Shown in pieces: positions 43,168-60,979 of a stretch of DNA of 64,000 nt (its first letter is position 1; each line of letters starts with the position of its first letter). The notes beneath the pieces were generated by a model, which saw only the letters and a program-made list of their open reading frames with translations, made no database searches and was not told where the DNA came from. The position numbers and the translations under genes are program-made. Location of the stretch: contig NZ_JAPEMU010000001.1 in assembly GCF_026342405.1 (NCBI RefSeq), forward strand, positions 2,480,001 to 2,544,000, in the 5' to 3' direction. The DNA comes from Kitasatospora sp. NBC_00240. Its GTDB lineage: Bacteria > Actinomycetota > Actinomycetes > Streptomycetales > Streptomycetaceae.

Positions 43168-43977
43168 TCAGCCGCCCAGTTGGTCGCTGGCGACCTCGTA
43201 CTCCAGCTCATAGAGGTGCCCGGCCTTCGCCATGACGGTCACCTCGATGACCCGGTCGTCGGCGCTGTATACGGTGCGGAAGGTGCGGAGCACTGGCAGC
43301 TCCCCGACCGGCATCTTCAGGTAGACCCCCTGATCCGCCGTAGGCGTCCGCGCAGACACCCGATCCACCGCGCGATGGAAGGGATACCCCATGCCGGCGA
43401 GAAGCGTAGGGACACCCCCCTTCACTTTCTTCCGCTCGGTGATCGCGGTACCGGCGGCAATTTCGATCGGGTAGTAGCTCTCCACGAGCTCAGCCGGCTC
43501 GCCATTCAGCTTTAGCAGCTGACGGCGCAGCACCGCGGTTCCATCCGATGCGATGCCGAGGGCCTTGGCAACCGACAGCGGCGGGACGACCTCGGCGACC
43601 TGAAGCAGCTCACTCTCCGCCGTCATTCCCCGACGCTGGGCCTCAGCGATCCAGCGGTAGGGCTCCCCTGGTTCAACCGGCGCGAAGTACGCCGCTGGCC
43701 GCATGGCGGTCATCCTGTGCTCTCTGACGGTGATGCCCTTGCCCCTGTGCCCGACGACCAGGCCCTCTTCCTTCAGGGCACGCATGGCGTTCTGCACTGC
43801 AGTCGTGGAGGCGCCGAACTCCTTGCACATGTCCCCGGTCGAAGGGAGGTCTTCGCCGGCCTCAATGTCCCCAGACAGGATCTGGTCTCGGTACTCCGCT
43901 GCGATCCGCAGGTGAGCAGTGCGGTTGTCGCCTTCGTGCGCCCTCTGCCGTTCCTCGGACGTCCTGCGCAGTCCCAT
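43168..43977 (-). CDS. HutC/GntR-family transcription regulator
   Basis: 269 residues: winged helix at about 20-85 (HLRIAAEYRDQILSGDIEAGEDLPST, FGASTTAVQNAMRALKEEGLVV) and a UTRA ligand domain at about 110-265 (LRRQLLKLNGEPAELVESYYP, KGGVPTLLAGMGY). Related KorSA-type repressors of integrative elements control transfer and replication genes. The ATG overlaps the stop of the UTRA-only gene (TGATG). Likely binds the ACAAGGT sites upstream of 44664 and at the DnaB operon promoter. Confidence 0.85.
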   Translation of the reverse strand: MGLRRTSEERQRAHEGDNRTAHLRIAAEYRDQILSGDIEAGEDLPSTGDMCKEFGASTTAVQNAMRALKEEGLVVGHRGKGITVREHRMTAMRPAAYFAPVEPGEPYRWIAEAQRRGMTAESELLQVAEVVPPLSVAKALGIASDGTAVLRRQLLKLNGEPAELVESYYPIEIAAGTAITERKKVKGGVPTLLAGMGYPFHRAVDRVSARTPTADQGVYLKMPVGELPVLRTFRTVYSADDRVIEVTVMAKAGHLYELEYEVASDQLGG

Positions 43978-44519
43978 CAGTTGACCTTCATTTCGTAGCG
44001 GAGTCGTCGTTCGCTGCCTGGCGTCACCATCACGCTGAACTCGATCGGTCGTTCGCCTTGGTCCCTTGCCAGGCGCGTGAGGACCAGTACGGGTTCGTGC
44101 GCCGAGAGGCGCAGCGCTGACGCTTCGTGGTCTGTGGGCAGCCGGCTTTCGACGTCTTCGACGACAGAGGCGATTCTGTGGCCCAGGCCGGTAAGGAGCG
44201 TGACCGCTCCCCCGCGGATCTTCTTGTTGGCCGCAAGCGCCGTTCCGGCCGCGATCGCCCCCGGGTACCAGGAACTGGCGATCTCTACCGGGTGCCCGTC
44301 GAGCTCGATGAGGCGTTGCCGGTGAACGACGGTGTGCCCTGGCCGGAGGTCAAGCTCGTCGGCAACGAGGGTCGGTGCTGGGGTCGTCTCCACGAGGAGC
44401 AGGCGCTGCGATCCCACCCCGCCGCGGAGTTCGGCTTCGGCGCTCCAGGCGTCCGCACCGCTTCGTGGGCGCAGGTAGGCGGCCGAGTCGCTGGACCACT
44501 TGTCATCGCTGCTGCTCAC
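43977..44519 (-). CDS. UTRA-only HutC-like protein lacking the DNA-binding domain
   Basis: 180 residues corresponding to the linker and UTRA domain only (YLRPRSGADAWSAEA ... VVHRQRLIELDGHPVEIASSWYP ... RGGAVTLLTGLGH ... EFSVMVTPG). The usual 80-residue winged helix is absent, and the GTG start (GAGGGG upstream) falls exactly at the domain boundary. Translationally coupled to the full-length regulator, it may form mixed dimers or act as a ligand-responsive antirepressor. It could also be the remnant of a truncated gene. Confidence 0.75.
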   Translation of the reverse strand: MSSSDDKWSSDSAAYLRPRSGADAWSAEAELRGGVGSQRLLLVETTPAPTLVADELDLRPGHTVVHRQRLIELDGHPVEIASSWYPGAIAAGTALAANKKIRGGAVTLLTGLGHRIASVVEDVESRLPTDHEASALRLSAHEPVLVLTRLARDQGERPIEFSVMVTPGSERRLRYEMKVN

Positions 44520-44557
44520 GGCGCCCCTCGCATCGCTTCACCTGCTCAAAGGTAACG

Positions 44558-44625
44558 CCTTGTACCTGTTCTTGAAAGGCTACAAGGTTCTCCACCTTGT
44601 CTCCTAAGCGGTAAGGCGATAACGT
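44558..44625 (+). promoter_or_regulatory. Rightward promoter with GntR-type operator
   Basis: -35 TTGTCT (44597-44602), 17 bp, -10 TAACGT (44620-44625). Inverted repeat ACAAGGT-TCTCC-ACCTTGT (44582-44600) overlaps the -35, and a third half-site CCTTGTA is at 44558-44564. Probably bound by the divergent HutC/GntR protein. Confidence 0.65.
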
Positions 44626-44663
44626 TGGAGCCGTTGGAAGACAACAAAGAAGCGGAGATACGC

Positions 44664-44864
44664 ATGCTCACAGTCAAGGAGGTGGCCAACCGCCTCGGAG
44701 TCAGCCAGTCCACCGTCTACCGATGGGTCCAGGACGGAGAGCTCGCTGCCGAGCGAGACAAGAAGCCCAGCCCGGTCAAGCGGAAGCGCAACTACCAGGG
44801 CAACATCCGCATCCCCGAGGGACTGGTCGACGCAATGCTCGCCGGCGAGCAGGAAGCCGCCTGA
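44664..44864 (+). CDS. MerR/excisionase-like HTH protein
   Basis: 66 residues: LTVKEVANRLGVSQSTVYRWVQDGELAAER is the helix-turn-helix of the excise/MerR superfamily, with a basic wing. In integrative elements such proteins act as excisionases or activators. Since the integrase is a serine type, a transcription role is as likely. First gene of the transfer-like operon; GGAG upstream of the ATG. Confidence 0.75.
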   Translation: MLTVKEVANRLGVSQSTVYRWVQDGELAAERDKKPSPVKRKRNYQGNIRIPEGLVDAMLAGEQEAA

Positions 44865-45118
44865 TGCCGGCCTCACCGAACCCCCGCTGGTGGGACGGCT
44901 ACGACGACCCCTACGGCCCCGCCGCCAGCCGGCCCCAGCCCTCCCACCCCATCCCCGCACTCGGAGCCCCACACATCGCAGGCCCCACCATCACCACCAA
45001 GGAGAACCCCATGGGATACGCCGGCAACTACAACGAGCGCCAGCCGCTCGCCGAACTCGTCATCGTCCCCGAGCCCACCCCCGAGCCGCCCGCCGAGCCC
45101 AAGCCCGAGTCCGAGTGA
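44864..45118 (+). CDS. Small Pro-rich hypothetical protein
   Basis: 84 residues, polar, with a Pro/Glu-rich C-terminus. The ATG lies in the previous stop; a second in-frame ATG at 45011 has a better AAGGAG upstream and would give a 35-residue protein, so both products may exist. Confidence 0.5.
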   Translation: MPASPNPRWWDGYDDPYGPAASRPQPSHPIPALGAPHIAGPTITTKENPMGYAGNYNERQPLAELVIVPEPTPEPPAEPKPESE

Positions 45119-45210
45119 GCGACGACAACTGGGCCCGCGGCCCCGTGGTCCCCAAGATCCCCGGCCAACGAAAGAAGCCCCCACCGACCCCGAAGAAGGA
45201 GAAGCCCTGA
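45115..45210 (+). CDS. Very small basic protein
   Basis: 31 residues, Pro/Lys-rich, GTG overlapping the previous stop and stop overlapping the next ATG. Kept because of the perfect chaining. Confidence 0.4.
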   Translation: MSDDNWARGPVVPKIPGQRKKPPPTPKKEKP

Positions 45211-45395
45211 TGGCCACCTTCCAGGAGCAGCAGGACAACGCCCTCACCGTCGCCCGCACCCTCGGCGACATCCCCACCAACACCACCCCCGCCGACGCCC
45301 AAGCTGTCATCGACCAGCTCGCCGACCGGCAGGTGTTCGACAACTCCGTCCGGCTCCTCCGCCAGCTCGGCTGGGAACAGCCCGCCGCCGCCTGA
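45210..45395 (+). CDS. Small helical protein
   Basis: 61 residues, helical, no motif. GAAGGAGAAG upstream of the ATG. Unknown. Confidence 0.5.
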   Translation: MATFQEQQDNALTVARTLGDIPTNTTPADAQAVIDQLADRQVFDNSVRLLRQLGWEQPAAA

Positions 45396-45405
45396 AAGGG
45401 GCCCC

Positions 45406-45585
45406 ATGTTCAGCCCCACCACCGCCAACCACCTCGCCAACGCCCGAGCCGCAGTCAACCGCGGCGACAACACCGCCGCCGAAGAAGCCCTCCTCGCAGC
45501 CGCCCGCGAAGGCACCACCGAAGACCGCGCCCGCCTCGCCTCGTACGTCTCACGCCACCTCGACCACATCAACGGCCGCGACTGA
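45406..45585 (+). CDS. Small helical protein
   Basis: 59 residues (begins MFSPTTANHLANARAAVN) of TPR-like Ala-rich helices. AAGGGG upstream of the ATG. Unknown function. Confidence 0.5.
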   Translation: MFSPTTANHLANARAAVNRGDNTAAEEALLAAAREGTTEDRARLASYVSRHLDHINGRD

Positions 45586-45597
45586 GAGGAGCAGGCA

Positions 45598-45783
45598 ATG
45601 ACCTTCAAGGTCAAGGACAAGGTCACCGTCACCCACGGCGAATGGGCCGGCAAGACCGGCACCGTCTACTACGTCGAAGACGGCGGCAAGGTCTTCGTCA
45701 CGGGCCTCCGACCCTTCGGTCTCAACGGCCTCATCGGCGGCATCGGCCTCCACCCCAACCAGCTCGCCCACGCCAACCGCTGA
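45598..45783 (+). CDS. KOW-like small protein
   Basis: 61 residues; FKVKDKVTVTHGEWAGKTGTVYYVEDGGKVFV is an SH3/KOW-like barrel. RBS GAGGAG. Comparable barrel at 35223. Confidence 0.55.
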   Translation: MTFKVKDKVTVTHGEWAGKTGTVYYVEDGGKVFVTGLRPFGLNGLIGGIGLHPNQLAHANR

Positions 45784-45794
45784 AAGGACAGCCC

Positions 45795-45974
45795 GTGGCC
45801 GACACCGCGTACGTCATCACCGTCACCCACCCCGACGGCACCCCCTACCAGGACCAGATCTCCGCCAACCTCCACACCCCGTCCGTCGTCACCGTCTACA
45901 CGACCGACGACCGCGACCAGCGCGTCGCCGCCATCCAGGCAGCCGGCCTCACCCCCCACGTCCGCGAAGCCTGA
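45795..45974 (+). CDS. Small protein with PDGxPY...AAGLxPHV domain
   Basis: 59 residues; starts YVITVTHPDGTPY and ends RVAAIQAAGLTPHVREA. The same domain forms the C-terminus of the next protein, so the two arose by duplication or fusion. Function unknown. Confidence 0.55.
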   Translation: MADTAYVITVTHPDGTPYQDQISANLHTPSVVTVYTTDDRDQRVAAIQAAGLTPHVREA

Positions 45975-45988
45975 AAGGAACAACCACC

Positions 45989-46354
45989 GTGAAGAACGCC
46001 GGCGCCTACCTCACCGCCAAGGTCATCAGCATCTTCTGGAACCCCCAGAAGACCCTGTACGCCCTCGCAGGGTTCGGCCTCGCCGGCATCTTCACCGGCA
46101 CCAACCCCATCACCGAGGCCCGCACCCCACTCATCATCGGCACCGCGATCCTCGCCGCCCTCGACACCATCGCCTGGTACCTGACCCGCAACCACGCAAC
46201 GTGGCTCCTCACCATCACCAACCCCGACGGCAGCCCCTACGTAGCGCCGTGGGGCGAGGACTGCGGCATGGAGATCGACAACCAGGACGAACTGCAGACC
46301 CGCGTCACCGCAGTCACCGCCGCCGGCCTGGTCCCCCACGTCCACCAAGCCTGA
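45989..46354 (+). CDS. Membrane protein fused to the PDGxPY...AAGLxPHV domain
   Basis: 121 residues: two hydrophobic segments (LYALAGFGLAGIFTG; LIIGTAILAALDTIAWYL), then LLTITNPDGSPY ... RVTAVTAAGLVPHVHQA, matching the preceding 59-residue protein. It may anchor that domain at the membrane. GTG start. Confidence 0.6.
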   Translation: MKNAGAYLTAKVISIFWNPQKTLYALAGFGLAGIFTGTNPITEARTPLIIGTAILAALDTIAWYLTRNHATWLLTITNPDGSPYVAPWGEDCGMEIDNQDELQTRVTAVTAAGLVPHVHQA

Positions 46355-46363
46355 GGACCGACC

Positions 46364-46615
46364 GTGAAGAACCCCTTCAACCGCGACCGCATGCACTGCG
46401 AGCCGTTCGAGATCGAAGACGCCGCCCGCATGGAAGCCAACCGCCAGCGCCTCATCGCCACCGACCCCGATGCCAAGGCAATCCTCATCACCAACATCGA
46501 GGCCGCGCACCAGTCCTGGAAGGTCAACACCAAGTTCAGCGCCGAGCAGGTCGCCTACAGCAACGCGAAGCACAGCAAGGGCGAAGGCCACCTCTACCAG
46601 CAGCTCTTCGCCTGA
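46364..46615 (+). CDS. Small hypothetical protein
   Basis: 83 residues, helical (FEIEDAARMEANRQRLIATD), no known family. GTG start after AGGACC. Followed by a strong hairpin. Confidence 0.5.
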   Translation: MKNPFNRDRMHCEPFEIEDAARMEANRQRLIATDPDAKAILITNIEAAHQSWKVNTKFSAEQVAYSNAKHSKGEGHLYQQLFA

Positions 46616-46621
46616 CTCAGC

Positions 46622-46666
46622 CCCGGGGCGGTCGTCCATCCGACCAAGAACGCCGACCGCCCCGGG
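46622..46666 (+). terminator. 13-bp GC hairpin
   Basis: CCCGGGGCGGTCG pairs with CGACCGCCCCGGG around a 19-nt loop; no T-run. Confidence 0.6.
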
Positions 46667-46705
46667 CACACCCACCGCCCACCAACGAGCAGCAAGGCAA
46701 CCATC

Positions 46706-47140
46706 ATGGCCCTCCTCAACCGACTCTCCAACCGCCTCGTCAACGCCACCACCGACCGCGTCGATTCATGGGGCCGCTCCATCGCCGCCCAGATCCCCAC
46801 CAACGCCGGCGAGAACGAAATGCGCCGCCGCCACGCCGACTGGGCCCGCACCGCCGAACTCCACCGCACCTACTGGACCGCCGACAGCAAGTACTACTGG
46901 GTATCCGTCGGCGGCAACGGCGGCGGCGACCAGCTCATCGCCACCAACGCCTACGTCTTCGTCCGCCGCGACACCACCGGCCTCGTCACCAAGGCCGGCG
47001 CCCACAGCTGGGACCTGTTCTTCCAGGCCGGCCTCAAGGGCTTCACCACCGTCGAGCCGCCGAAGCCGCCGAAGGGCGAGGAGTTCTTCGTCCGCGGTGA
47101 CCTGCGTGACCTCCCGGCGGACTGGGTCATCACCCGGTGA
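46706..47140 (+). CDS. Hypothetical protein
   Basis: 144 residues with helical N-terminus and beta-rich middle (KYYWVSVGGNGGGDQLI). No recognised family. ATG after GCAAGG. Its stop overlaps the next GTG. Confidence 0.55.
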   Translation: MALLNRLSNRLVNATTDRVDSWGRSIAAQIPTNAGENEMRRRHADWARTAELHRTYWTADSKYYWVSVGGNGGGDQLIATNAYVFVRRDTTGLVTKAGAHSWDLFFQAGLKGFTTVEPPKPPKGEEFFVRGDLRDLPADWVITR

Positions 47141-47358
47141 AGCACACGCCCATCAGCGAGTTCCGCACCTTCGGCGGCGCCCGCATCACCATCCACCGCG
47201 CCACGTTGTTCGCCTTCTGGTTCCGCGGCTACGGCTGGAAATGCTCCGGCTGCGGCACCAGCCAGTCGCACACCCAAGCCGGACAGCCCGTGCAGCTCGC
47301 CACCGCCGAGCAAGCCGCCGACACCCACGCCAGCACCTGCCGCCGCGTCCCCGCCTGA
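47137..47358 (+). CDS. Small zinc-knuckle protein
   Basis: 73 residues; WKCSGCGTS and later HASTCRR supply zinc ligands. GTG overlaps the previous stop. Followed by a hairpin. Confidence 0.55.
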   Translation: MKHTPISEFRTFGGARITIHRATLFAFWFRGYGWKCSGCGTSQSHTQAGQPVQLATAEQAADTHASTCRRVPA

Positions 47359-47370
47359 CGGCCGTACGGC

Positions 47371-47394
47371 GCCGCACAGCCCCAGCTGTGCGGC
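47371..47394 (+). terminator. 10-bp GC hairpin
   Basis: GCCGCACAGC/GCTGTGCGGC with a CCCA loop. Confidence 0.5.
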
Positions 47395-47447
47395 AGCCGC
47401 AGGCACTCAGACACCCCACCATCCAGCCCGCAGGAAGGAGCACGGCC

Positions 47448-48020
47448 ATGGAACACAACGTCATCACCATCAACGGACAGCCCTACCCGACGCGGAACTA
47501 CCCGCTTCTCCCCATCGCCGCCTACGGCAGCCGCGACCTCTACAACCTCAACGACACCCAGTACCGCACGTCCGTCGCCATCCACGAAGCCGGCCACGCC
47601 ATCGCCCACCTCGCCGGCGGCAACGCCCACCTCGTCCACGTCAGCCTCGCCGACGACCTCGACGTCGAAGTCAACGGCGCCGTGGAGGCGTGGTCCTACG
47701 ACCGCCACGCACCCGCCGCAGTCATCGCAGACTGCGCTGGCGAGCGAGCCGTCGACATGTGGCTCCACATCGCCGGCCTGTGGACGGACGAACGCGCCAT
47801 CGCCGCCGAGATCGCCGCCCACTTCGACCGGGCCCTCGCACTCGCCGTGCCCGGCATGACCCACGCCCTCCTGCGCGGCATGCACGACCCCACCGACGAC
47901 CTCCTTGCCGCCCACTGGCCCAGCGTCGAGGCCGTAGCCGAAGCCCTCATCACCGCCCGGCACCTGACCGGCGACCAGGTCGCCCACATCACCGGCCTGC
48001 CCAATCGGGAGCAGCCGTGA
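47448..48020 (+). CDS. Stand-alone M41-like HEAGH zinc protease domain
   Basis: 190 residues. SVAIHEAGHAIAHLAGG near residue 46 is the HExxH zinc site in the M41/FtsH-like HEAGH form, with ADCAGERAVDMW downstream in the position of the third-ligand helix. No AAA ATPase or membrane segment is attached, so it is a short soluble relative. Similar orphan proteins occur in actinobacterial mobile elements. ATG preceded by GGAAGGAG. Confidence 0.75.
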   Translation: MEHNVITINGQPYPTRNYPLLPIAAYGSRDLYNLNDTQYRTSVAIHEAGHAIAHLAGGNAHLVHVSLADDLDVEVNGAVEAWSYDRHAPAAVIADCAGERAVDMWLHIAGLWTDERAIAAEIAAHFDRALALAVPGMTHALLRGMHDPTDDLLAAHWPSVEAVAEALITARHLTGDQVAHITGLPNREQP

Positions 48021-48139
48021 CCCAGCCCACCGCCTACGACCGCGCCCTCGAAGCCGAACGCCAACTCGCCGCCGGCCTCGGAGGCGAAGATACCGTCGAC
48101 TACTGGATGAACAAAGCCGCAGAGGAGGACCAGCAGTGA
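48017..48139 (+). CDS. Very small acidic protein
   Basis: 40 residues, helical, GTG in the previous stop and stop overlapping the next ATG region. Unknown. Confidence 0.4.
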   Translation: MTQPTAYDRALEAERQLAAGLGGEDTVDYWMNKAAEEDQQ

Positions 48140-48435
48140 ACCGCCGACCCGCCGGCCCCGCCGAACATCAGACCCTCTCCACCATCGCCATCGCCGTCGC
48201 CCTCCTCGCATGGACCTGGACCCCCGGCCCCCTCGCCGCGCCGGCCGCCATCCTCACCCAACTCCTCGTCGTCACTGCTGGCGCCTGGGCCCTCCGCTGG
48301 AACATCCCCTCCGCCCTCACCGCCAACCAGCAGCACCTGCGGCTCACCGCCGCCGCGACCCTCGCACTCACCGCCGCACTCCTCCACTACACCGCCAACA
48401 CCATCGCCCCCAACCACCAGCCCGCCACCCACTAA
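48136..48435 (+). CDS. Small polytopic membrane protein
   Basis: 99 residues with about three membrane segments (TIAIAVALLAWTWTPG; AAILTQLLVVTAGAWAL; LAATLALTAALLHYTA-like). Spd-like small membrane proteins precede transfer genes in Streptomyces elements; that comparison is positional. Confidence 0.55.
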   Translation: MNRRPAGPAEHQTLSTIAIAVALLAWTWTPGPLAAPAAILTQLLVVTAGAWALRWNIPSALTANQQHLRLTAAATLALTAALLHYTANTIAPNHQPATH

Positions 48436-48449
48436 GGAAACCCACCCCC

Positions 48450-49454
48450 ATGAACGAGCAGACCACCACCGAGCCCAACAGGCTCCTCCGCGGCGTCCTC
48501 TTCCTCGTCATGGGCGCAGCACTCACCGTCGGCACCTGGTCCATCTACACCCTCCTCACCGTCAAATTCGGAGCCCCCAAGAAAGTCGCCGTCTTCGGCT
48601 CCGGCATGTTCGACGGCGCCGCCCTCTACTTCGCGCTCCTCGCCCAGCGCTACGCCACCAGCCCCGACTCCGGCCTCGCCCCCCGCCTCGCCATGCTCGC
48701 CATGGTCACCGCCAGCTCCTGGGTGAACTGGACCCACGCGCAACTGGAAGGCTGGGGCATCGTCGGCGGGATCCTCCTCGCCCCCGCCCCGGTCATCGCC
48801 GAGGTGGCCTTCGAGATGTGGCACCGCTACGAGCACCGTGAGGCCCTTCGGGACCAGGGCCGCGTACAGAGCGCCCTCCCTGTCATCCCCGGACTCGCCT
48901 GGCTGCTCTTCCCGAAGAAGTCCGCGAAGGTGATGCGCGCATCGGTTGGCGCCCAGCTGGATGTCGTGGAGCGTGAGGCGCAGCACGCCGCATCACCCGC
49001 TGATGCGCATCGTCTGGAGCGCACCACCGCACCCCGCCACGCGGTCACCGCAGAGGCGGACGGCGATGCGCAGCGCATCGTCATCACCCTGCAGCAGCCG
49101 CACGCCATCACCGCATCACCCGCCGGCCGGCAGCACGCCGCGCATGATGCGCCCAATGTCGTCGCACGTCAGCGCCGTGATACGGCCCCGCGCATCATCA
49201 CCGTCCCGCAGGCCGCATCGGACGATGCGCACCCCGGTGACGCGCTCGCGGCGCCGCACGACGTGGACTTCGCCGCAGTGTCGAAGGCCGCCGCGGTGCG
49301 GGCGATGCGCGATGCGCACCCCGATGCGGCGGCGCAGCAGATCGCTGATGCGCTCGCGCCGCACGGCATCACCGTGACCGCCAACTACGTCCGCACCGTT
49401 TGCTCCCGCGCATCATCCGGTGACCCGCAGCAGGGCACCGGCGGCTACCTGTAG
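48450..49454 (+). CDS. DUF2637-like (Spd-type) membrane protein with repeat-rich C-terminus
   Basis: 334 residues: four membrane segments in the first 135 residues (GVLFLVMGAALTVGTWSIYTLL; GAALYFALLAQRY; LAMLAMVTASSWVNWTHA; GGILLAPAPVIAEVAFEMW), as in DUF2637 proteins linked to plasmid spreading. Residues about 160-320 are a low-complexity Ala/His/Asp region whose DNA carries the GATGCG/CGCATC array. The end (AVRAMRDAHPDAAAQQIADAL) looks like an HTH. ATG with AAGGAAA upstream. Confidence 0.72.
   Translation: MNEQTTTEPNRLLRGVLFLVMGAALTVGTWSIYTLLTVKFGAPKKVAVFGSGMFDGAALYFALLAQRYATSPDSGLAPRLAMLAMVTASSWVNWTHAQLEGWGIVGGILLAPAPVIAEVAFEMWHRYEHREALRDQGRVQSALPVIPGLAWLLFPKKSAKVMRASVGAQLDVVEREAQHAASPADAHRLERTTAPRHAVTAEADGDAQRIVITLQQPHAITASPAGRQHAAHDAPNVVARQRRDTAPRIITVPQAASDDAHPGDALAAPHDVDFAAVSKAAAVRAMRDAHPDAAAQQIADALAPHGITVTANYVRTVCSRASSGDPQQGTGGYL
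48932..49414. repeat. GATGCG/CGCATC motif array, candidate transfer or partition site
   Basis: Seventeen copies of the hexamer in either orientation within 483 bp, several as palindromes (GATGCGCGCATC at 48932, GATGCGCATC at 49002, GATGCGC-A-GCGCATC at 49065). They fall in more than one reading frame and use locally rare GAT, GCA and TCA codons. Adjacent to the translocase gene, as plasmid clt sites are. Confidence 0.75.
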
Positions 49455-49512
49455 CCCTCGACGCTTCACCGCACCACCGACTGCCGCTACCCCATGCGAA
49501 GGAGAGAGTTCC

Positions 49513-51396
49513 GTGGCCCAGTTCATCGGCCCCGCCGAGGTGCCGTTCCTCCCCAGGCCGACCCGGGCCGCCCAGGCGACGATCGTGACGGCGATGCCGA
49601 CGACGACGGACCCGACGACGGCATTCCCGCAGGTCGCCGTCGCTCCGGCGGACGTTCTCCGATCGTCGTCAACGATCACGGACGTGGCCGTGAAGGCCAA
49701 GCCGGCCCCCGCCCGGCGTCTCCTGACCAGCTGCGTAGCCGTCGCCCGCCGCACCTACGCCCTCACCCTCCGGTACAAGGTCGAACTGGCCCCCGCCTAC
49801 ACCGTCAGCACCCTCACCGCCCTCGGCTGGTGGCAGCACCTCGCTGGCGCCGGAGGCTGGACCGTCGCCGCCTACACCGGCCTCGGCCTGGCATCCGCCG
49901 CTGTCGGCGGCGCCGGCCTCCACTTCAAGAACATGCCGCTCCTCGGCGGCGGCACCGCCGTGGCGCTCGCCCTCGCCGACGTCGCCACCGCAGTCGGTGC
50001 CGGCCCCGGTGGTGTCTCCCTCACCGCGGCGGCCGTCACTGCCGGCGCCGGGTACGGCGCGTACGTGCCGTGGCTCATCGCCCACCGCAAGGGCAACAAG
50101 CCCGTCGACGGCGCGAAGACCACCGAGGTCAACACCGTCACCGCGGACGCCATCACCCCCGCCGCCGATGTCCTCGTCCCCGGGGGCCCCTTCCACAACG
50201 AGTCCATCCCCTACGCCGACGACAACAACGACGACCCCGCCGCCCCCATCCGCATCGGCTGGGACGAATACGGCCGCCCCGTCTACCTCACCCTCCTGTA
50301 CCGGCACACCCTCATTGCCGGCGCCTCCGACTGGGGCAAGTCCGGCCTCGTCAACCTCGTCATCAAGAAGCTCCTCAAGAAGAAGCACGTCGAGCTGTAC
50401 GGCATCGACATGAAGCCCGGCGCCGTCGAGCTCGGCCCGTGGGAGCCCCTCATGAAGCGCCTCGCCCGCGGACCCGAAGAAGCCCGCGACCTCCTCCAGG
50501 CCGTGCGCGCTGAATGCGACCGCCGGGGTGCGCTCCTCGAAGAGCTGTCCCGCCGCGAGCTGGCGGCTGGCCGCAAGGCTGTCCGCAAGTGGGTCCCGGG
50601 CGTGCACGGCACCGCGTGGTGGATCGTCACCGACGAGCTGGGCGAGCTGATCCGCCAGGACGAAGAGCTCCGCAAGGAGGAAGCCGCCGCCGCGAAGGGC
50701 GACCCCGACGCCGGCCCGGCCGAGCGGGCCGCCGCTACCACCTACCAATCGCTCCTGGCCATCGCCCGCGGCTTCGGCATCCAGTTCATCTCCGCCACGC
50801 AGCAGCCGTCCAGCAAGGTGTTCGGCGGCGACACCGACGCCCGCGGCAACTACACCAACAGGATCTGCACTCGCGTCGGCGAGGCCGGCCACACCCAGTT
50901 CATCTTCGGCACTGGCTGGAAGGCGGCCGGGTTCACACCGCACCAGCTCACCAGGCCCGGCGAGTTCTATCTCGGTGCGCCGGAGATGCCGTTGACGGAC
51001 CCGCCGAAGTGCCGGGCCGAGTACGTCACCGACCTGGACATCGCCGCGGACGTGGCTCACCTGCACTCGGCCGCACCTTCGCGGCCGGTTGGCCGGTTCG
51101 CCCCGCAGGGCCAGCTGCACCTCGTCAAGGAGCCCACGCCGAAGCCGGCCGGACCGACCTACCCCGACGGCACGTCGGTCGGCCGCGACGAGTGGCCCGA
51201 CCTGTATCGGGTTCTCCTGGAGCTGTGTGCCGAGCACGGATCCGCCACCAAGGCCGAACTGACGGAGGCCGGCCCGTTCGGGTCCCGCGACACGGTCCGC
51301 CGCGCCCTCGACCTGTGGATCACCCGCGGCGTGCTGGTCCGCAAGGCCGGCAAGGCCGAGCAGTTCTACCTCCCCACCGACGACACCGAGATCTGA
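49513..51396 (+). CDS. FtsK/TraB-like DNA translocase
   Basis: 627 residues. N-terminal part with hydrophobic segments (about residues 80-190), then the motor domain: Walker A AGASDWGKSGLVN near 275, LYGIDMKPGAVELG, Walker B WWIVTDELGELI, and sensor segment QFISATQQPSS. The C-terminal 65 residues (LYRVLLELCAEHGSATKAELTEAG) form a winged helix, as in FtsK gamma and TraB, which read short DNA motifs. In Streptomyces elements such proteins move double-stranded DNA between cells. GTG start with GGAGAGAG upstream. Confidence 0.85.
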   Translation: MAQFIGPAEVPFLPRPTRAAQATIVTAMPTTTDPTTAFPQVAVAPADVLRSSSTITDVAVKAKPAPARRLLTSCVAVARRTYALTLRYKVELAPAYTVSTLTALGWWQHLAGAGGWTVAAYTGLGLASAAVGGAGLHFKNMPLLGGGTAVALALADVATAVGAGPGGVSLTAAAVTAGAGYGAYVPWLIAHRKGNKPVDGAKTTEVNTVTADAITPAADVLVPGGPFHNESIPYADDNNDDPAAPIRIGWDEYGRPVYLTLLYRHTLIAGASDWGKSGLVNLVIKKLLKKKHVELYGIDMKPGAVELGPWEPLMKRLARGPEEARDLLQAVRAECDRRGALLEELSRRELAAGRKAVRKWVPGVHGTAWWIVTDELGELIRQDEELRKEEAAAAKGDPDAGPAERAAATTYQSLLAIARGFGIQFISATQQPSSKVFGGDTDARGNYTNRICTRVGEAGHTQFIFGTGWKAAGFTPHQLTRPGEFYLGAPEMPLTDPPKCRAEYVTDLDIAADVAHLHSAAPSRPVGRFAPQGQLHLVKEPTPKPAGPTYPDGTSVGRDEWPDLYRVLLELCAEHGSATKAELTEAGPFGSRDTVRRALDLWITRGVLVRKAGKAEQFYLPTDDTEI

Positions 51397-51405
51397 GGAC
51401 CCGCC

Positions 51406-51873
51406 ATGAACCAGCAGCAGACCGCCAACGCCCTGCCCGTCCACCTGCCGCAGCCGATCCCTTTCCTGCCCGCCCCCGCCAGGGCGCAGCAGCCGATGCT
51501 CCAGCAGATGCCCGGAGTCGTCGTCACCCCCGATGGGCAGCTGTACCACGGCTACCCGCCGATTCCGTACCCGGAGCCGGCCGCCCCCGACCCGCGGCCG
51601 ATGCTGTTGGCGAGCGCCGGCGTTTTCGGGGCGGGTGTCGGCTGGGGCGGTGCGCAGCTGCTGGGCGCGCTGGCCGGGGTGTCGACGGGGACGTTGCTCG
51701 CGGCAACCGTCGCGGTGATCGCCCTGAAGACGAAGCTGCCCACCCCTGGCGGGACTGGCGGCGGGACGGTGTACAACCACACCGAGCAGCACACCCACCA
51801 CACCACCGCCACTGGGCTGTTCGGCCGGGCCAACAGCACGATCAACAGCGCACGCACCAACAACTTCGGCTGA
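51406..51873 (+). CDS. Membrane protein, Spd-like
   Basis: 155 residues: Pro/Gln-rich N-terminus, two hydrophobic segments at about 68-110 (MLLASAGVFGAGVGWGGAQLLG; TGTLLAATVAVIALKT), and a His/Thr/Asn-rich end. Follows the translocase directly, like spreading proteins in plasmids. ATG with GAGGACC upstream. Confidence 0.65.
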   Translation: MNQQQTANALPVHLPQPIPFLPAPARAQQPMLQQMPGVVVTPDGQLYHGYPPIPYPEPAAPDPRPMLLASAGVFGAGVGWGGAQLLGALAGVSTGTLLAATVAVIALKTKLPTPGGTGGGTVYNHTEQHTHHTTATGLFGRANSTINSARTNNFG

Positions 51874-51939
51874 CCGAGCTCCGGCAGAGCGACCGTCAAC
51901 CGGGGCAGCATATAAACGGCGTTCGCTCCCCGGGCGGAG

Positions 51940-51945
51940 TACAGT
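51940..51945 (+). promoter_or_regulatory. -10 element of the Y RNA transcript
   Basis: TACAGT lies 8 bases before the first predicted Y RNA nucleotide (51953). No convincing -35 is seen. Confidence 0.4.
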
Positions 51946-51952
51946 GGCCAAC

Positions 51953-52088
51953 GTCCAGGTGCGTAGGCAGAGGTTACTTCCACTTGTAATGGGCAGGTCG
52001 CGGGTTCGAGTCCCGTCATCGACCTACGGTCGGTGTAGCTCAGTCGGCCAGAGCAGCTGTGTCACCTCCGCCGCCTCGATCTCTGGGC
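51953..52088 (+). ncRNA. Y RNA-like 1 with permuted tRNA module (YrlA type)
   Basis: Terminal stem GTCCAG/CTGGGC, conserved 5' element GTGCGTAGG and 3' element TCGATCTC, second stem GGCAGAGGT (51966-51974) with ACCTCCGCC (52064-52072), and TTACTTC at the loop entrance. The distal loop holds a tRNA mimic in permuted order: T arm with TTCGAGT loop (52000-52016), an 8-bp acceptor-like stem closed by TAC (52017-52035), and a D arm GCTC/GAGC (52038-52054). There is no anticodon arm. Confidence 0.82.
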
Positions 52089-52104
52089 ATACAACTTCAT
52101 GCAG

Positions 52105-52179
52105 GGCACCTCCCGGTGCGCAGGGCAACGGCTACTTCTGCAACAAGCCGCCGTCGCCCGCTTCTGATCTCGGGAGGCC
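52105..52179 (+). ncRNA. Y RNA-like 2, compact form
   Basis: Terminal stem CCTCCCG (52109-52115)/CGGGAGG (52171-52177), conserved GTGCGCAGG and TGATCTC elements, second stem GGGCAACGGC/GCCGTCGCCC with one A-C mismatch, and CTACTTC at the loop. The tRNA-like module is missing; the loop is only about 17 nt. Confidence 0.72.
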
Positions 52180-52187
52180 ACAGCATC

Positions 52188-52327
52188 GGGACGCCCGGTG
52201 CGAAGGCAGCGGATACTTCATTCGGTCGCGGGTTCAAGTCCCGCCCGACCGCCCAACGGCGGCCGGTAGCTCAGTAGGTAGAGCAAATGACAACCCCTCC
52301 GTCGCCAACTCCGATCTCGGGCGTCCC
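52188..52327 (+). ncRNA. Y RNA-like 3 with permuted tRNA module (YrlA type)
   Basis: Ten-bp terminal stem GGGACGCCCG/CGGGCGTCCC, conserved GTGCGAAGG and CGATCTC elements, second stem GGCAGCGG (52205-52212)/CCGTCGCC (52299-52306), and ATACTTC. The distal module is T arm with TTCAAGT loop (52228-52244), a 9-bp acceptor-like stem with one mismatch and CAAC loop (52245-52266), then D arm GCTC/GAGC (52269-52284). No anticodon arm and no CCA position. Confidence 0.85.
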
Positions 52328-52335
52328 ACTGCTGA

Positions 52336-52365
52336 GCCTCCCCTCCATGTGAGGGGCTTTCTCTT
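52336..52365 (+). terminator. Y RNA terminator overlapping the Ro ribosome-binding site
   Basis: CCCCTC (52340-52345)/GAGGGG (52351-52356) with loop CATGT, then CTTTCTCTT. GAGGGG is also the Shine-Dalgarno for the TTG start at 52364, so folding would hide it. Confidence 0.65.
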
Positions 52366-53941
52366 GTCCAGGTTCAACACCCGCACCGCGCAGCCGGTCG
52401 CCACCTCGCCCGTGACCACCACCGGGCAGACCACCGTCAACCACCAGGGCGGCACCGGCCACCTCCGCGACGCGAAGAGCGAGCTGTTTCTCCTCGCCGT
52501 GTCCAACACCGTCAGCAACGACACCTTCTACGAGAAGGCCGGCACCCGCGACGACCGCTACCAGCGCCTCGTCCGCAAGCTCGCAGCCGACGACCCCGAG
52601 TGGACCGCCAGCCTCCTGCGCTGGCTCCGCACCGACGCCAACATGCGCACCGCCGCCCTCGTCGGCGCCGCCGAGTTCACCGCCGAGCGCATCCTGCGCC
52701 AGCTCCCCGGCCACTCCCGGCAGGTCATCGCCTCCGTCCTCCAGCGCCCCGACGAGCCCGGTGAGCTCCTCGCCTACTGGACCAGCCACTACGGCCGCAA
52801 CATCCCCAAGCCCGTCAAGCGCGGCATCGAGGACGCCATCGGCCAGCTGTACACCGAGAAGGCTCTCCTCAAGTACGACACCGCCAGCAAGGGCTTCCGC
52901 TTCGGTGACGTCCTCGAACTCGTCCACCCGAGCCCGAGGGCCCTCTGGCAGGGCGACCTGTTCAAGCACGCCCTCGACCGGCGTCACAACCGGGACAACT
53001 CGATCCCCGAGTCTCTGACCATGCTGCACGCCCGGGCGTTCCTCGCTGCCATGCCCGTCTCCGACCGCCGCGCCTACCTCGACACCACCGGCGCCCAGCT
53101 GTCCCTGCGAGAAGCGGGCATGACGTGGGAGGCGCTCGCCGGATGGCTGCAGGGCCCGCTCGACGCTGCGGCTTGGACTGCCGTGATCCCGTCCATGGGG
53201 TACATGGCGCTCCTACGAAACCTGCGGAACTTCGACCAGGCCGGGGTGCCCGACGATGTCGCCGCCAGCGTTGCGGCGACCCTCGCCGACCCCGCCGCTG
53301 TCGCCAAGTCCCGGCAGTTCCCGTTCAGGTTCCTCGCCGCGTACAAGAACGCCCCGTCCCTGCGCTGGGGACACGCCCTGGAGAAGGCCCTCGGCTACAG
53401 CCTGGCCAACGTCCCGGCCCTGCCCGGTCGCACCCTGGTTCTCGTCGATCGGTCCGGGTCGATGTTCGGCGGCATCAGCGAGCGCACCCAGCTGAACCGC
53501 GCGGACTCCGCCGCCGTGTTCGGTACCGCCCTGGCGATGCGCGCCGAGAGCAGTGACCTCATCGAGTTCGGATCCACCTCCCAGCACGTCACCTACCGAG
53601 CCGGCGAATCGGTCCTCCCCGTCATCGGTCGATTCCACGACCTCGGCGGCACCGCGACCGCCGCAGCTGTCCGCGCCCACTACCGGGCTCATGACCGCGT
53701 CGTCATCGTCACCGACGAGCAGACCGGCCCCTCAAACTGGGGCGGCAACCCGCTCGACGCCATCCCGGCCAGCGTGCCCGTCTACACCTGGAACCTCGCC
53801 GGGTACCACAGCGGTCACGCCCCGACCGGGACGGCCAACCGTCACACCTTCGGCGGTCTGACCGATCAGGCTTTCGGGCTGATCCCGCTTCTCGAAGCTG
53901 GCCGTAGTGCCGCCTGGCCGTGGGAGCACAAGGCAGCGTGA
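52364..53941 (+). CDS. rsr: Ro60/TROVE-domain RNA-binding protein (Rsr)
   Basis: 525 residues, normal Ro length. The TROVE HEAT-like ring covers about residues 15-350 (ELFLLAVSNTVSNDTFYEKAG, IASVLQRPDEPGELLAYW, LREAGMTWEALAGWLQ, SMGYMALLRNLRNF), and the vWA-like domain has an intact MIDAS DRSGSM (Asp362, Ser364, Ser366) with a Thr and VIVTDEQT. Ro rings bind Y RNA and misfolded RNA and, in bacteria, tether PNPase. The TTG start is chosen because MSRFNTRT matches Ro N-termini and GAGGGG lies 7 nt upstream; longer readings run through the Y RNA genes. Confidence 0.92.
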   Translation: MSRFNTRTAQPVATSPVTTTGQTTVNHQGGTGHLRDAKSELFLLAVSNTVSNDTFYEKAGTRDDRYQRLVRKLAADDPEWTASLLRWLRTDANMRTAALVGAAEFTAERILRQLPGHSRQVIASVLQRPDEPGELLAYWTSHYGRNIPKPVKRGIEDAIGQLYTEKALLKYDTASKGFRFGDVLELVHPSPRALWQGDLFKHALDRRHNRDNSIPESLTMLHARAFLAAMPVSDRRAYLDTTGAQLSLREAGMTWEALAGWLQGPLDAAAWTAVIPSMGYMALLRNLRNFDQAGVPDDVAASVAATLADPAAVAKSRQFPFRFLAAYKNAPSLRWGHALEKALGYSLANVPALPGRTLVLVDRSGSMFGGISERTQLNRADSAAVFGTALAMRAESSDLIEFGSTSQHVTYRAGESVLPVIGRFHDLGGTATAAAVRAHYRAHDRVVIVTDEQTGPSNWGGNPLDAIPASVPVYTWNLAGYHSGHAPTGTANRHTFGGLTDQAFGLIPLLEAGRSAAWPWEHKAA

Positions 53942-57499: not shown

Positions 57500-58978
57500 G
57501 TGCGGACCGCCTTCAGTCTCCTCGCCGACCAGCTAGAAGCCGACGAGGAGCAGCAGTCCCGCGCGGCGGACTACGCCGCCGACCCGGCCCTGTGGGCGCG
57601 GGAGAAGCTCGGCGAGCACCTGTGGTCGAAGCAGGTCGACATCGCGGAGTCCGTCCGTGACAACCGGCTCACCGCGGTGCAGTCGTGTCACGGCGTCGGC
57701 AAGTCGTGGACGGCGTCGCGGCTGACCGCGTGGTGGCTCGACATCCACCCGCCCGGAGAGGCGCGGGTCGTGACGACCGCGCCGACCGGCGACCAGGTGA
57801 AGGCGATCCTGTGGTCGGAGATCAACGCGGCGTTCGGGATCGCCGCAGCGCGCGGAAACCCGCTGCCCGGCCGGATCAACGAAACGGACTGGAAGCTCGG
57901 CAAGCGCCTCATCGCGTTCGGCCGTAAGCCGTCCGACTACAACCCGCACGCGTTCCAGGGCATCCACGCCAAGTACGTCCTGGTCATCCTCGACGAGGCG
58001 TGCGGCATCAACAAGCAGTTCTGGACCGCAGCGAACGCGATCGCCACCGGTGAGCACTGCAGGATCCTGGCGATCGGCAACCCCGACGACCCGGGCTCCC
58101 AGTTCGCGAGGGTCTGCGCGAACACCGACAGGTGGAACGTCATCCGCATCTCGGCGTTCGACACCCCGAACTTCACCGACGAGGAGATCCCGGACGAGCT
58201 GCGGCCGAGCCTCGTCTCGCATGCCTACGAGGAGGACATGCGCACCGAGTTCGGTGCGCAGTCCCCCACCTACATCTCCAAGGTGCTCGGCGAGTTCCCG
58301 TCCGACGCCGAGGACGGTGTCGTGCGGCTCTCCGCGATCCGGGCGTGCACGCTGCCGCCCGCGGCCGCGCTGCTGCACACCGACCTCGTGCCGGTGGAGC
58401 TCGGCGTGGACCTGGGCGCCGGCGGCGACGAGACCGTCATCCGGGAACGCCGCGGCCCGCGTGTGGGCCGCGAGTGGCGCAGCCGGGAGAGGGACTCGGC
58501 GAAGGTCGTGCAGGAGATCGTCCGGGTGATCGGGCTGACCGGGGCCGGCGCCGTGAAGGTCGACTCCATCGGGATCGGCTGGGGCATCGTCGGGTCCCTG
58601 CGGGAGAAGCGGCAGGAGGGCGCGCACAGCGCCGACATCATCGGCGTCAACGTCTCAGAGTCCAGCACCGAGCCGGAGAAGTTCGCGCGCCTGCGCTCGC
58701 AGATCTGGTGGCAGATCGGCCGGCAACTGTCCGAGGACCACGGCTGGGACCTGTCGGAACTCGAAGCGGACGACCGTGAACGCCTCGTCTCCCAGCTCAC
58801 CGCACCGAAGTACACGACGGACGCCTCCGGGCGGATCGTCGTCGAGCCGAAAGCCGAAACGAAGAAGCGCATCGGCCGTTCCCCCGACAACGCGGACGCG
58901 CTGATGCTCGCGTTCTACGTCGGCGCCGGCGGGCACGGCAGCGCCATGGACTGGCTGCAGCACTACCGAAACGGATAG
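57500..58978 (+). CDS. terL: Terminase large subunit
   Basis: 492 residues: packaging ATPase with Walker A SCHGVGKSWTA near residue 60, Walker B YVLVILDEACGI and coupling motif ILAIGNPD, then a C-terminal RNase H-like nuclease with GVDLGAGGDET and VDSIGIGWGIV. Cuts concatemers and pumps DNA through the portal. The GTG start follows 15 bases after the small subunit. Confidence 0.9.
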   Translation: MRTAFSLLADQLEADEEQQSRAADYAADPALWAREKLGEHLWSKQVDIAESVRDNRLTAVQSCHGVGKSWTASRLTAWWLDIHPPGEARVVTTAPTGDQVKAILWSEINAAFGIAAARGNPLPGRINETDWKLGKRLIAFGRKPSDYNPHAFQGIHAKYVLVILDEACGINKQFWTAANAIATGEHCRILAIGNPDDPGSQFARVCANTDRWNVIRISAFDTPNFTDEEIPDELRPSLVSHAYEEDMRTEFGAQSPTYISKVLGEFPSDAEDGVVRLSAIRACTLPPAAALLHTDLVPVELGVDLGAGGDETVIRERRGPRVGREWRSRERDSAKVVQEIVRVIGLTGAGAVKVDSIGIGWGIVGSLREKRQEGAHSADIIGVNVSESSTEPEKFARLRSQIWWQIGRQLSEDHGWDLSELEADDRERLVSQLTAPKYTTDASGRIVVEPKAETKKRIGRSPDNADALMLAFYVGAGGHGSAMDWLQHYRNG

Positions 58979-58996
58979 CCGAGATGGGGGTGTGAC

Positions 58997-60979
58997 GTGC
59001 CGCGTTGGAACCCTTTCCGTCGCATCGTGGAGCAGCCCGACCAGGCGAAGGCCCTGACCGTGCCGGCAACGGCCACTACCTTCACTCCGCAGCAGGTCGC
59101 TGAGCTCCTGGCGTCGACTACCGTCGGCGGGCAGACGACCGGCGCGATCGTTCCACTGCCCCGACTGGAGCCGCAGGTAGCGTTCGGGCCGGGCATGCCG
59201 CTCATCCCGGGCGCCATCGATCCGCTCGACCCGCGCACCGGCCGGCCCCAGCCGCGCTTCAACGACTACCCCGTCTCCTCCAACCTCCCCGGCGTCGAGG
59301 ACCGCCTCGTGCCGTGGAAGGTCCTGCGGGACGCCGCCGACGTCGGTGGTCTCGCCCGGCGCTGCATCGAGATCCGCAAGACGGAGGTCGTCGGCCTGGA
59401 ATGGGCCATCACGATCACGAAGAGTGCCGTGGAGGCCGCCCGGGCCGCCGACCCCGACCGGGCCCCGTCCGAGGTCGAAGCGGAACTGCGCGAGCGCCTC
59501 ACTCCGGAGATCGCCCGCTGCACGAAGTTCTGGCGCCGGCCCGACCCGGGCCAGGACGAGAGCACCGCCGACTGGATGGGCAAGCTCCTGGAGGAGCACC
59601 TCGTCCTCGACGCCGTCGCGATCTACCCGCGCCGCACCTGGGGCGGCGATCTGTTCGCCCTGGAGATCCTCGACGGCACCACCGTGAAGCTGCTGCGGGA
59701 CCACCGCGGCGGCCGGCCGATGCCCCCGAACCCTGCCTACCAGCAGATCCTGCAGGGCTTCCCGCGGGGCGAGTTCGTGGCGGACACCGACGCTGACGGC
59801 AAGATCGCCGACGGGTACCGGTCCGACGAGCTGATCTACAAGCGGCGCAACATCCGCGCCCACACCCCGTACGGGTACTCCGCCGTCGAGCAGGCCCTCG
59901 AAGACATCGACGTGTGGCTGCGGCGCCGCAAGTGGATCCGCGACGAGTACACCGAGGGGACCGTCCCCACCGGTCTGCTCCGCAACAGCGGCGCGTCCGG
60001 CTGGTCCCCCGCGCAGACGTCCGAGTACGAGACGCTCCTCAACGACGCCTACTCCTCTACGGGTTCACGCCACAGGCTTCGGGTTCTGCCGCCCGGCATG
60101 GAACTGGAGACGCAGGCCGACGCCGCCGAGCGGTACAAGCCCGAGTACGACCTGTTCCTGATCAAGCTGATCGCCTCGCACTTCGACGTGACGATCGCCG
60201 AACTCGGCTTCACCGAGGAGGGGGGCCTGGGCAGCTCCGGCTGGCACGAGGGCCAGGCCGACGTCCAGGAACGCAAGGGCACCTTCCCGACCGTGCGGTG
60301 GCTGCAGCAGCTCGTCACCGTCATCTCCCGCCAGCACCTGGGCATGCCCGACGAGCTGGAGTTCCGCTTCCTCGGCCTGGAGGAGGAGGGGGAGGCGACC
60401 GCGGATGAGGTCGCGAAGTCGCGGGTCGCGGACGGCCGGATGACGTACAACGAGGACCGGGACCGGATGGGCCTGCCGCGGTACGACTTCCCCGAAGCGG
60501 ACATGCCGCTGATCCGCACCACGCGCGGCCTGGTGTTCCTCAACGGGGCATCCGACCTCGTCCCGGCGGGGGAGATCGTCGGCGCCGTGCAGGGCCGGCC
60601 CCTGGCCGACAGGGATGCCGACGGCATCCTGGACGCCCCGCAGGGCCCCGACAACGACACGAAGATCCCGACGGCCGACGACGAGGACAAGGAGGGAGGA
60701 GCAGAGACCGACGAGGATGACGGCGAGGACCGCACCCTGCAGGTGAAAGCCGAACTCAGCGCCTACCGCCGGTGGGCACGCCGCAACCCGGCACCCGTCC
60801 GGCCGTTCACGTTCACCGTCGTCACCAAGGCCGACGCACCCGACCTCGCCGACACCGCCGTCGTGTTCGCGGCAGCACCGGACCGCCACCCAAAAGCGGA
60901 AGCCCGGCCACCTGGCCGGGCTGGGAACGCGACCAGGCCACCGCAGACCTCTGGGCCCGGCAACTCGTCCAGGAACTGA
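58997..60979 (+). CDS. Portal protein (0-frame product)
   Basis: 660 residues, larger than the usual 450-550. Residues 1-540 are the portal core (VEDRLVPWKVLRDAADVGGLARRCIEIRKTEVV; LTPEIARCTKFWRRPD; LIASHFDVTIAELGF). The C-terminal 120 residues are acidic then Pro/Arg-rich. In the last 80 codons the frame contains a C CCA AAA slip site, after which only 27 more codons follow; most ribosomes would finish here. Forms the vertex ring that accepts terminase. Confidence 0.9.
   Translation: MPRWNPFRRIVEQPDQAKALTVPATATTFTPQQVAELLASTTVGGQTTGAIVPLPRLEPQVAFGPGMPLIPGAIDPLDPRTGRPQPRFNDYPVSSNLPGVEDRLVPWKVLRDAADVGGLARRCIEIRKTEVVGLEWAITITKSAVEAARAADPDRAPSEVEAELRERLTPEIARCTKFWRRPDPGQDESTADWMGKLLEEHLVLDAVAIYPRRTWGGDLFALEILDGTTVKLLRDHRGGRPMPPNPAYQQILQGFPRGEFVADTDADGKIADGYRSDELIYKRRNIRAHTPYGYSAVEQALEDIDVWLRRRKWIRDEYTEGTVPTGLLRNSGASGWSPAQTSEYETLLNDAYSSTGSRHRLRVLPPGMELETQADAAERYKPEYDLFLIKLIASHFDVTIAELGFTEEGGLGSSGWHEGQADVQERKGTFPTVRWLQQLVTVISRQHLGMPDELEFRFLGLEEEGEATADEVAKSRVADGRMTYNEDRDRMGLPRYDFPEADMPLIRTTRGLVFLNGASDLVPAGEIVGAVQGRPLADRDADGILDAPQGPDNDTKIPTADDEDKEGGAETDEDDGEDRTLQVKAELSAYRRWARRNPAPVRPFTFTVVTKADAPDLADTAVVFAAAPDRHPKAEARPPGRAGNATRPPQTSGPGNSSRN
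60889..60922 (+). promoter_or_regulatory. -1 programmed ribosomal frameshift signal
   Basis: Slippery heptamer C CCA AAA (60889-60895) in the portal reading frame, 5-nt spacer, then a 9-bp stem (60901-60909/60914-60922) with loop ACCT. Shifted ribosomes continue into the MuF frame. Confidence 0.8.

Follow-up and report, generated by a model that had tools for sequence, protein, structure and literature searches.

A survey published by Chen et al. in 2014 is said to have found Y RNAs near Ro60 in more than 250 bacterial and phage species, with at least one Y RNA per species reportedly carrying a tRNA-like domain. The present analysis concerns a prophage locus of Kitasatospora sp. NBC_00240, at which three tandem Y RNA-like units (RNA1, RNA2 and RNA3) precede a gene for a Ro (TROVE/Rsr) protein, and which lies within a window of 64,000 nucleotides (contig NZ_JAPEMU010000001.1, positions 2,480,001 to 2,544,000). 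These units resemble the Y RNAs of that survey in being phage-borne, in occurring several to a Ro gene and in existing both with and without a tRNA-like domain. According to published work, Ro binds the lower stem of the Y RNA, while the Y RNA gates the Ro surface and brings PNPase to it (PMC4726728, PMC8394870, PMC9879122, PMC7790460), acting as tether and gate in the Rsr-Y RNA-PNPase complex (RYPER) of Deinococcus radiodurans (PMC4726728). The tRNA mimicry of bacterial Y RNAs has been described in terms of D, T and acceptor arms (PMC8394870), and the structure of Salmonella YrlA is available as PDB 6CU1 (PMC8394870, PMC11472068). Phage Ro and a permuted tRNA head are already known (PMC7824862, PMC11472068), as are several Y RNAs per Ro, namely YrlA and YrlB (PMC9879122).

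RNA1 and RNA3 are like YrlA (Rfam RF02553) in lying beside Ro and in combining a lower stem with a permuted module that has D, T and acceptor arms, and RNA3 likewise lacks an anticodon loop, its anticodon stem being built from the two strands that run into the Y stem. Unlike YrlA, RNA1 keeps an anticodon arm that is missing from the Rfam consensus, and RNA2 is without a tRNA module. No Rfam match to a vertebrate Y RNA was found in 51850-52420 up to E 5. The Ro protein shares its predicted fold with the Rsr of RYPER (2nvo) and resembles Ro60 of Thermus phage phiLo (9l5y, a solved phage Ro; 25% identity by Foldseek), the latter comparison being one of proteins only. Among the literature matches listed, taken as titles and the starts of abstracts and with the primary papers (including Chen et al. 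2014) outside this coverage, no Y RNA with an anticodon arm is described. The class represented by RNA1 (class I, below) thus appears to be new relative to the Rfam consensus and the literature covered, which does not amount to proof of novelty.

The locus is probably a prophage Ro ribonucleoprotein locus in which three Y RNA-like units, with a plain (RNA2), a YrlA-type (RNA3) and a whole-tRNA-type head (RNA1), act as proposed below. This reading is based on the position and copy numbers of the array, the co-occurrence with Ro (74 of 75 genomes), the covariation of the helices, the controls on the anticodon arm, the likeness to tRNA and the fold of the Ro protein. The three tandem units upstream of a prophage Ro had been proposed in an initial annotation; its segments were recovered in place, and both Ro and phage genes were identified. 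The terminal stems that it described as different in sequence and complementary (GTCCAG/CTGGGC, CCTCCCG/CGGGAGG and GGGACGCCCG/CGGGCGTCCC) were verified base by base, and the second stem, too, was recovered together with the mismatch that recurs in it. The tRNA mimicry of RNA1 and RNA3, and their assignment to two different classes, were not recognised at that stage.

Table 1. Features of the Ro locus (positions are those of the window)
Feature	Position	Strand	Description	Basis
-10-like element TACAGT	51940-51945	+	ends 7 bases before RNA1	
RNA1	51953-52088	+	permuted tRNA module keeping the anticodon arm, class I	R2 covariance model, 130.6 bits at 51950-52091 (RNA1 itself a row of R2)
RNA1 anticodon-arm mimic	51980-51994	+	CCA / CTTGTAA / TGGGC = tRNA positions 29-43; triplet TGT	
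RNA1 T arm	52000-52016	+	GCGGG TTCGAGT CCCGT	helix 5 of the RNA1-type alignment
RNA1 acceptor-like stem	52017-52035	+	capped by a short loop; free CCA end absent	helix 6
RNA1 D arm, position 26 and bases 27, 28	52038-52057	+	27, 28 are the partners of 43, 42	helices 7, 4
Linker ACAACTTCATGCA	52091-52103	+	ahead of the short unit; candidate processing site	
RNA2	52109-52177	+	short Y RNA without tRNA module	R1 model of 32 short units, 67.0 bits (RNA2 is one of the 32)
RNA3	52188-52327	+	permuted tRNA module, known YrlA layout, class II	R2, 90.8 bits (RNA3 outside the R2 model)
RNA3 anticodon stem	52218-52222 with 52286-52290	+		
Hairpin CCCCTC-CATGT-GAGGGG	52340-52356	+	covers the likely Shine-Dalgarno GAGGGG (52351-52356)	
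Ro (TROVE/Rsr) gene	52364-53941	+	TTG start, 525 aa	

Units were sought with a detector that asks only for the common 5' motif, GATCT and a minimum of five terminal base pairs. The compared set comprised 115 related loci (69 genome, 46 viral) in addition to the window, and was reduced to 109 by removing four identical copies and three loci with less than 700 nt upstream. Of the 204 matches of the detector, 201 fell within 1 kb upstream of Ro (109 kb in total) and three in the remaining 901 kb, and 213 motif pairs were present in the 109 real upstream regions versus two in 545 doublet-shuffled copies. In an alignment of 33 hand-picked RNA1-type units, 97.0% of cells were paired and two-sided changes occurred at 25 of 34 pairs, with a covariation score of 0.509 against 0.147 for shuffled alignments and none of 500 shuffles as good. 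The RNA structure that had been claimed is thus borne out by covariation among homologues, as measured with a score of our own instead of R-scape. Chance or artefact as an explanation was ruled out by the shuffle controls, the position controls and the covariation. A lower stem of the Ro type is common to RNA1, RNA2 and RNA3, and is kept with its internal loops across the 32 short and 33 RNA1-type units aligned.

In RNA1 and RNA3 the predicted tRNA modules are circularly permuted, running from the variable loop through the T arm, the acceptor stem closed by a short loop and positions 8-9 to the D arm, and RNA2 carries no such module. A tRNA-like parse was obtained for 128 of 202 distinct units, 105 of which passed stricter limits; strict scoring placed 68 of the latter, RNA1 included, in class I and 19 in class II. 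In RNA3, TCATT before the variable loop pairs with AATGA after the D arm and there is no anticodon loop; in a looser set of class II units (n = 25) the five pairs hold in 22-25 units, none of 1,000 shuffles being as good. In RNA1, the post-D strand supplies one side of the two outer pairs of the anticodon stem and the inner three make up a hairpin with a 7-nt loop, all five together amounting to a tRNA-like anticodon arm. In class I the Y stem thus enters the anticodon stem between positions 28 and 29, as part of a three-way junction. The 68 class I units stem from genome contigs (47, not sorted for prophage location), viral contigs (20) and the window (one), and their acceptor stem has all seven pairs in 58 units and six, the minimum for inclusion, in 10. 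The median best identity of the modules to 40 distinct tRNAs of the window's genome was 0.80, comparable to the 0.77 obtained for the same 40 tRNAs against tRNAs of another amino acid.

The anticodon arm was assessed in two class I subsets, 48 units with a 5-nt and 22 with a 4-nt variable loop, each position being tested against both partner strands. In the 5-nt-loop units, 27-43 and 28-42 pair with the post-D strand in 47 of 48 units each (0 of 1,000 shuffles as good in either case), the latter as CG in 27, TA in 11, GC in six and AT in three units. Pairs 29-41, 30-40 and 31-39 of the same units form with the pre-loop strand in 48, 48 and 46 of 48, with two-sided changes in 6, 14 and 9 (again 0 of 1,000 shuffles each), and the alternative partner strands performed no better than shuffles. 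A model with all five anticodon pairs in a local hairpin was dropped, as covariation ties the outer two to the post-D strand. The inner three pairs are also present in 22 of 22 units with the 4-nt loop. Since hairpin pairing and U33 had been criteria in the choice of these subsets, an unselected control was performed on the 105 parsed units: three pairs together with a YU-NNN-RA loop were found at the tRNA register in 61, RNA1 included (39 at the 5-nt register and 22 others at the 4-nt register), and only once in total over eleven shifted registers. Loops of units chosen by pairing only (n = 68) carry Y32 in 62, U33 in 65, R37 in 66 and A38 in 66 units, in RNAs with a base content of 21% U and 15% A.

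The triplets are of 22 kinds in the 63 class I units whose loop starts with pyrimidine-U, and only two of 70 units share their triplet with the tRNA that their body matches best (null mean 0.84); given this wide variation and poor agreement, no single anticodon is imitated. The copying of one specific tRNA was ruled out, as the matches of the bodies are spread over many isoacceptors (Thr 20, Arg 19 and Glu 13 of 70). Tandem tRNA-Asn genes are among the best tRNA matches of the R2 model, and a module copied from tRNA-Asn(GTT) failed the test of triplet against body.

Across the 109 loci, one unit was detected at 20, two at 34, three at 25, four at eight and six at one, the corresponding numbers for the 41 viral loci alone being six, 14, seven, four and one, with nine lacking a unit. 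The triple array had been considered unusual, a view that does not hold, as 25 of the 109 loci have three units and nine have more. The long-short-long order of the window recurs in several loci (including L002, L003, L014, L021, L072 and L099), and a second Ro locus with three units is present in the window's own genome. In 66 of the 88 loci with at least one unit, 31-58 nt separate the end of the last unit from Ro. A viral contig (L085, 3137-3959) carries six tandem Y RNA-like units ahead of one Ro gene.

In 147 genomes sampled from the host's order, TROVE was found in 80 and a strong RNA1-type match in 75, with both in 74, the RNA only in one and TROVE only in six. The cut-off for a strong match (E 2e-13) was chosen after false matches to tandem tRNA genes had been seen. 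At E 0.001 the R2 model is unspecific, matching in 139 of the 147 genomes and, across the phylum, in 202 of 296, although TROVE is present in only 80 and nine of these, respectively. The weaker R2 matches that were checked proved to be tandem tRNA genes at six of seven loci, with scores of up to 67.8 bits. Because tandem tRNA genes match R2, matches in tRNA-rich phage loci were counted only where no tRNA is annotated; provided that such genes are screened out, the R1 and R2 models score RNAs that the Rfam cut-off misses. A full-length RNA1-type match of 76.9 bits (L140, approximately 4485-4627, minus strand) lies in a genome without a TROVE match, and is possibly an orphan Y RNA.

The product of the gene that follows the array is, judging from its sequence and predicted fold, a true TROVE protein, and the earlier designation of this gene as Ro is upheld by agreeing TROVE, PHROG and predicted-fold matches. 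It matches Pfam TROVE (1e-13; 51.7 bits with a cut-off of 23) over residues 267-327 only, PHROG 850 (RNA-binding protein, 3e-52) and, by sequence, four TROVE proteins of solved structure in the PDB, the best being 9l5y (8e-32). The predicted model (pLDDT 89.4) consists of a helical ring and a vWA domain, and Foldseek retrieved 9kop (2.5e-15) and the Ro autoantigen 1yvp_A (6e-15) as well as Rsr (2nvo) and 9l5y. Residues D362, S364, S366, T430 and D451, which we take to be the MIDAS residues, are invariant in 23 sequences. The TTG codon at 52364 was preferred as the start, since with it the alignments with most relatives begin at residue 1. PHROG identified genes for a terminase (3e-33) and a portal (4e-66) downstream of Ro, and the element, carried in a host genome of 10.4 Mb, is therefore regarded as a prophage.

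With respect to expression, 30 arrays of at least two units start with a long unit, and in 12 of them a TANNNT element begins exactly 13 nt ahead of that unit; it falls in the bin from -18 to -13 in 16 of these 30, with zero to one in any other 6-nt bin; in 38 short-first arrays the element occurs at two places (14 and 12 of 38). The fixed distance of the -10-like element argues for a start at the first base of the RNA1 outer stem, where transcription of the array probably begins. A linker of the form ACAA..GCA or CACAAC lies ahead of 28 of 59 short units. At least five of six positions of the Shine-Dalgarno-like window are paired in 54 of 68 loci, and the hairpin has a median z of -2.1 relative to doublet shuffles, with z below -1.5 in 43 of the 68. 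The conservation of this hairpin suggests that Ro may be made from the array transcript at a controlled rate.

A number of observations weigh against the interpretation of the locus as a set of Y RNAs with tRNA-like heads. No unit was detected at 21 of the 109 compared loci, 74 of the 202 units do not parse as tRNA-like, and 18 of the 105 parsed units fit neither class. The Rfam YrlA check that the initial annotation had suggested gave matches to RNA1 (38.1 bits, E 8e-7; six bases at the place of its anticodon arm appear as an insertion) and RNA3 (43.4 bits, E 2e-8), but both score under the curated cut-off of 69 bits, at which no YrlA match was obtained anywhere in the window, and the Rfam scan returned no YrlA match for RNA2. 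With RNAfold z-scores of -1.6, -2.9 and -4.0 for RNA1, RNA2 and RNA3, respectively, RNA1 alone is not exceptional by energy; furthermore, its anticodon-arm fold is not the one of lowest energy for this RNA on its own (51954-52089: -46.4 kcal/mol with the arm enforced, -49.9 with the other arms only and -50.4 when free). In the 4-nt-loop units, either candidate partner is supported by covariation for 28-42, and for 27-43 covariation with the post-D strand is weak (76 of 1,000 shuffles as good), and the strand assignment is thus less clear in this subset. Finally, three pairs without the loop requirement do not single out the tRNA register, being found in 57 and 27 of 105 units at the two tRNA registers and in 0-21 elsewhere.

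Under the favoured reading, a single transcript beginning at the first base of RNA1 would cover the three RNAs, extend into Ro and be cut into separate units, each of which Ro would bind via the lower stem. RNA2 would act as a plain lid over the outer surface of Ro, while RNA1 and RNA3 would be adaptors whose tRNA-like heads recruit tRNA-binding proteins or PNPase, so that loading of alternative RNAs on Ro would give it different partners; the hairpin ahead of Ro would restrain its translation. A further-reaching proposal, which we regard as tentative and rather unlikely, is that class I constitutes a separate Y RNA class, frequent in actinobacteria and the phages that infect them and with members in a Xanthomonas phage as well, which displays a whole tRNA body with a structured anticodon arm and serves as an unchargeable tRNA surrogate, arming Ro against, or directing it to, enzymes that recognise this arm, such as anticodon nucleases encountered in phage infection. 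A common class that keeps an anticodon arm but has no chargeable end would imply that some partner reads the anticodon arm; the role of the tRNA-like head of Y RNAs, and the reason why phages carry Ro, would become directly testable.

The same properties, namely an anticodon arm with U33, R37 and A38 kept and a sealed acceptor end, would also suit a decoy, i.e. a stable, unchargeable tRNA look-alike, carried by Ro, with which a phage would absorb or inhibit anticodon nucleases and further defences directed at tRNA. Prophages and isolated phages alike carry such RNAs, five of ten actinophage records have Ro in a cluster of tRNA genes, and Hughes et al. 2020 propose that YrlA is a possible competitive inhibitor of anticodon nuclease (PMC7790460). 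However, there is no preferred anticodon (22 kinds of triplet in 63 units, agreement with the body in two of 70), 47 class I units come from the genome contigs (unsorted for prophage location) as against 20 from the viral contigs and one from the window, Ro has no match in PADLOC, and fragments of Salmonella YrlA went undetected after tRNA cleavage (PMC7790460); a decoy function is thus considered unlikely. It is also conceivable, if very improbable, that the structures mainly control translation of Ro in cis, with Ro binding its own leader and the hairpin at the ribosome binding site acting as a switch. The short distance of the last unit from Ro (31-58 nt in 66 of 88 loci) and the hairpin covering the Shine-Dalgarno in 54 of 68 loci are in keeping with this, yet several units with independent terminal stems and tRNA-like heads exceed what a leader needs, and published Y RNAs act in trans (PMC4726728). 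That the segments are decayed or misread tRNA genes is scarcely credible: their likeness to tRNA is strong and at least one phage record (VanLee) annotates such a stretch as a tRNA, but ARAGORN found no tRNA gene in the window, the order of the arms is permuted and the acceptor closed, the Ro-type stem is shared with short units that are not tRNA-like, and covariation is heavy.

Both classes were also encountered in a further scan of 20 more loci with a looser rule, by which one outer pair suffices, where 23 parsed modules comprised nine of class I, eight of class II and six of neither. Two class I units were found in a Xanthomonas phage, and others in BRock (one outer pair only), Gordonia phage VanLee and a Rhodococcus plasmid, while class II units were found in Streptomyces phages LuckySocke, GiJojo, Kela and Quantum and in a Brevundimonas phage. 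Owing to a different 3' motif at 12 phage and plasmid Ro loci, the motif detector gave no match at these even when relaxed; their units were found by covariance models and Rfam. YrlA was matched at ten of ten phage and plasmid Ro loci scanned, in all cases under the cut-off (best E 2e-7 to 0.013), the match of Arthrobacter phage Atuin being downstream of Ro.

The annotated tRNA-Arg(tct) of Gordonia phage VanLee (L122, 2099-2170) overlaps an RNA1-type match of 115.6 bits and is probably a misannotated Y RNA, and tRNA-Ser(gct) of Streptomyces phage LuckySocke (L117, 2274-2347) overlaps a weak match of 48.4 bits. The actinophage records with Ro inside a tRNA gene cluster are those of four Streptomyces phages and one Arthrobacter phage (L116-L120). 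A permuted tRNA is what is read across two tandem tRNA genes, and such pairs may be its origin.

The sequence of the terminal stem tends to track the place in the array (GTCCAG in the first unit, CCTCCCG in the short unit and GGG..GCCCG in the last), and these place-specific sequences are conserved despite their freedom to covary; in the short unit the 3' strand of this stem is Shine-Dalgarno-like and the 5' strand anti-Shine-Dalgarno-like. In 200 of 202 units, whether or not they carry a tRNA module, the second stem is followed by a UACUUC-like motif ([A/C]CTTC or TTCTTC), which in RNA1 reads TACTTC (51975-51980) and has its equivalent in RNA2 and RNA3. This motif was also observed in Xanthomonas and Rhizobium phages, within stretches resembling Y RNAs, and is missing from the Rfam YrlA consensus. 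Additionally, a GntR/UTRA regulator, a small HTH protein and an FtsK/SpoIIIE-like gene, which are typical of actinobacterial integrative elements, are present beside the terminase and portal genes (43171-51396 and 57500-60979), hinting at a hybrid element.
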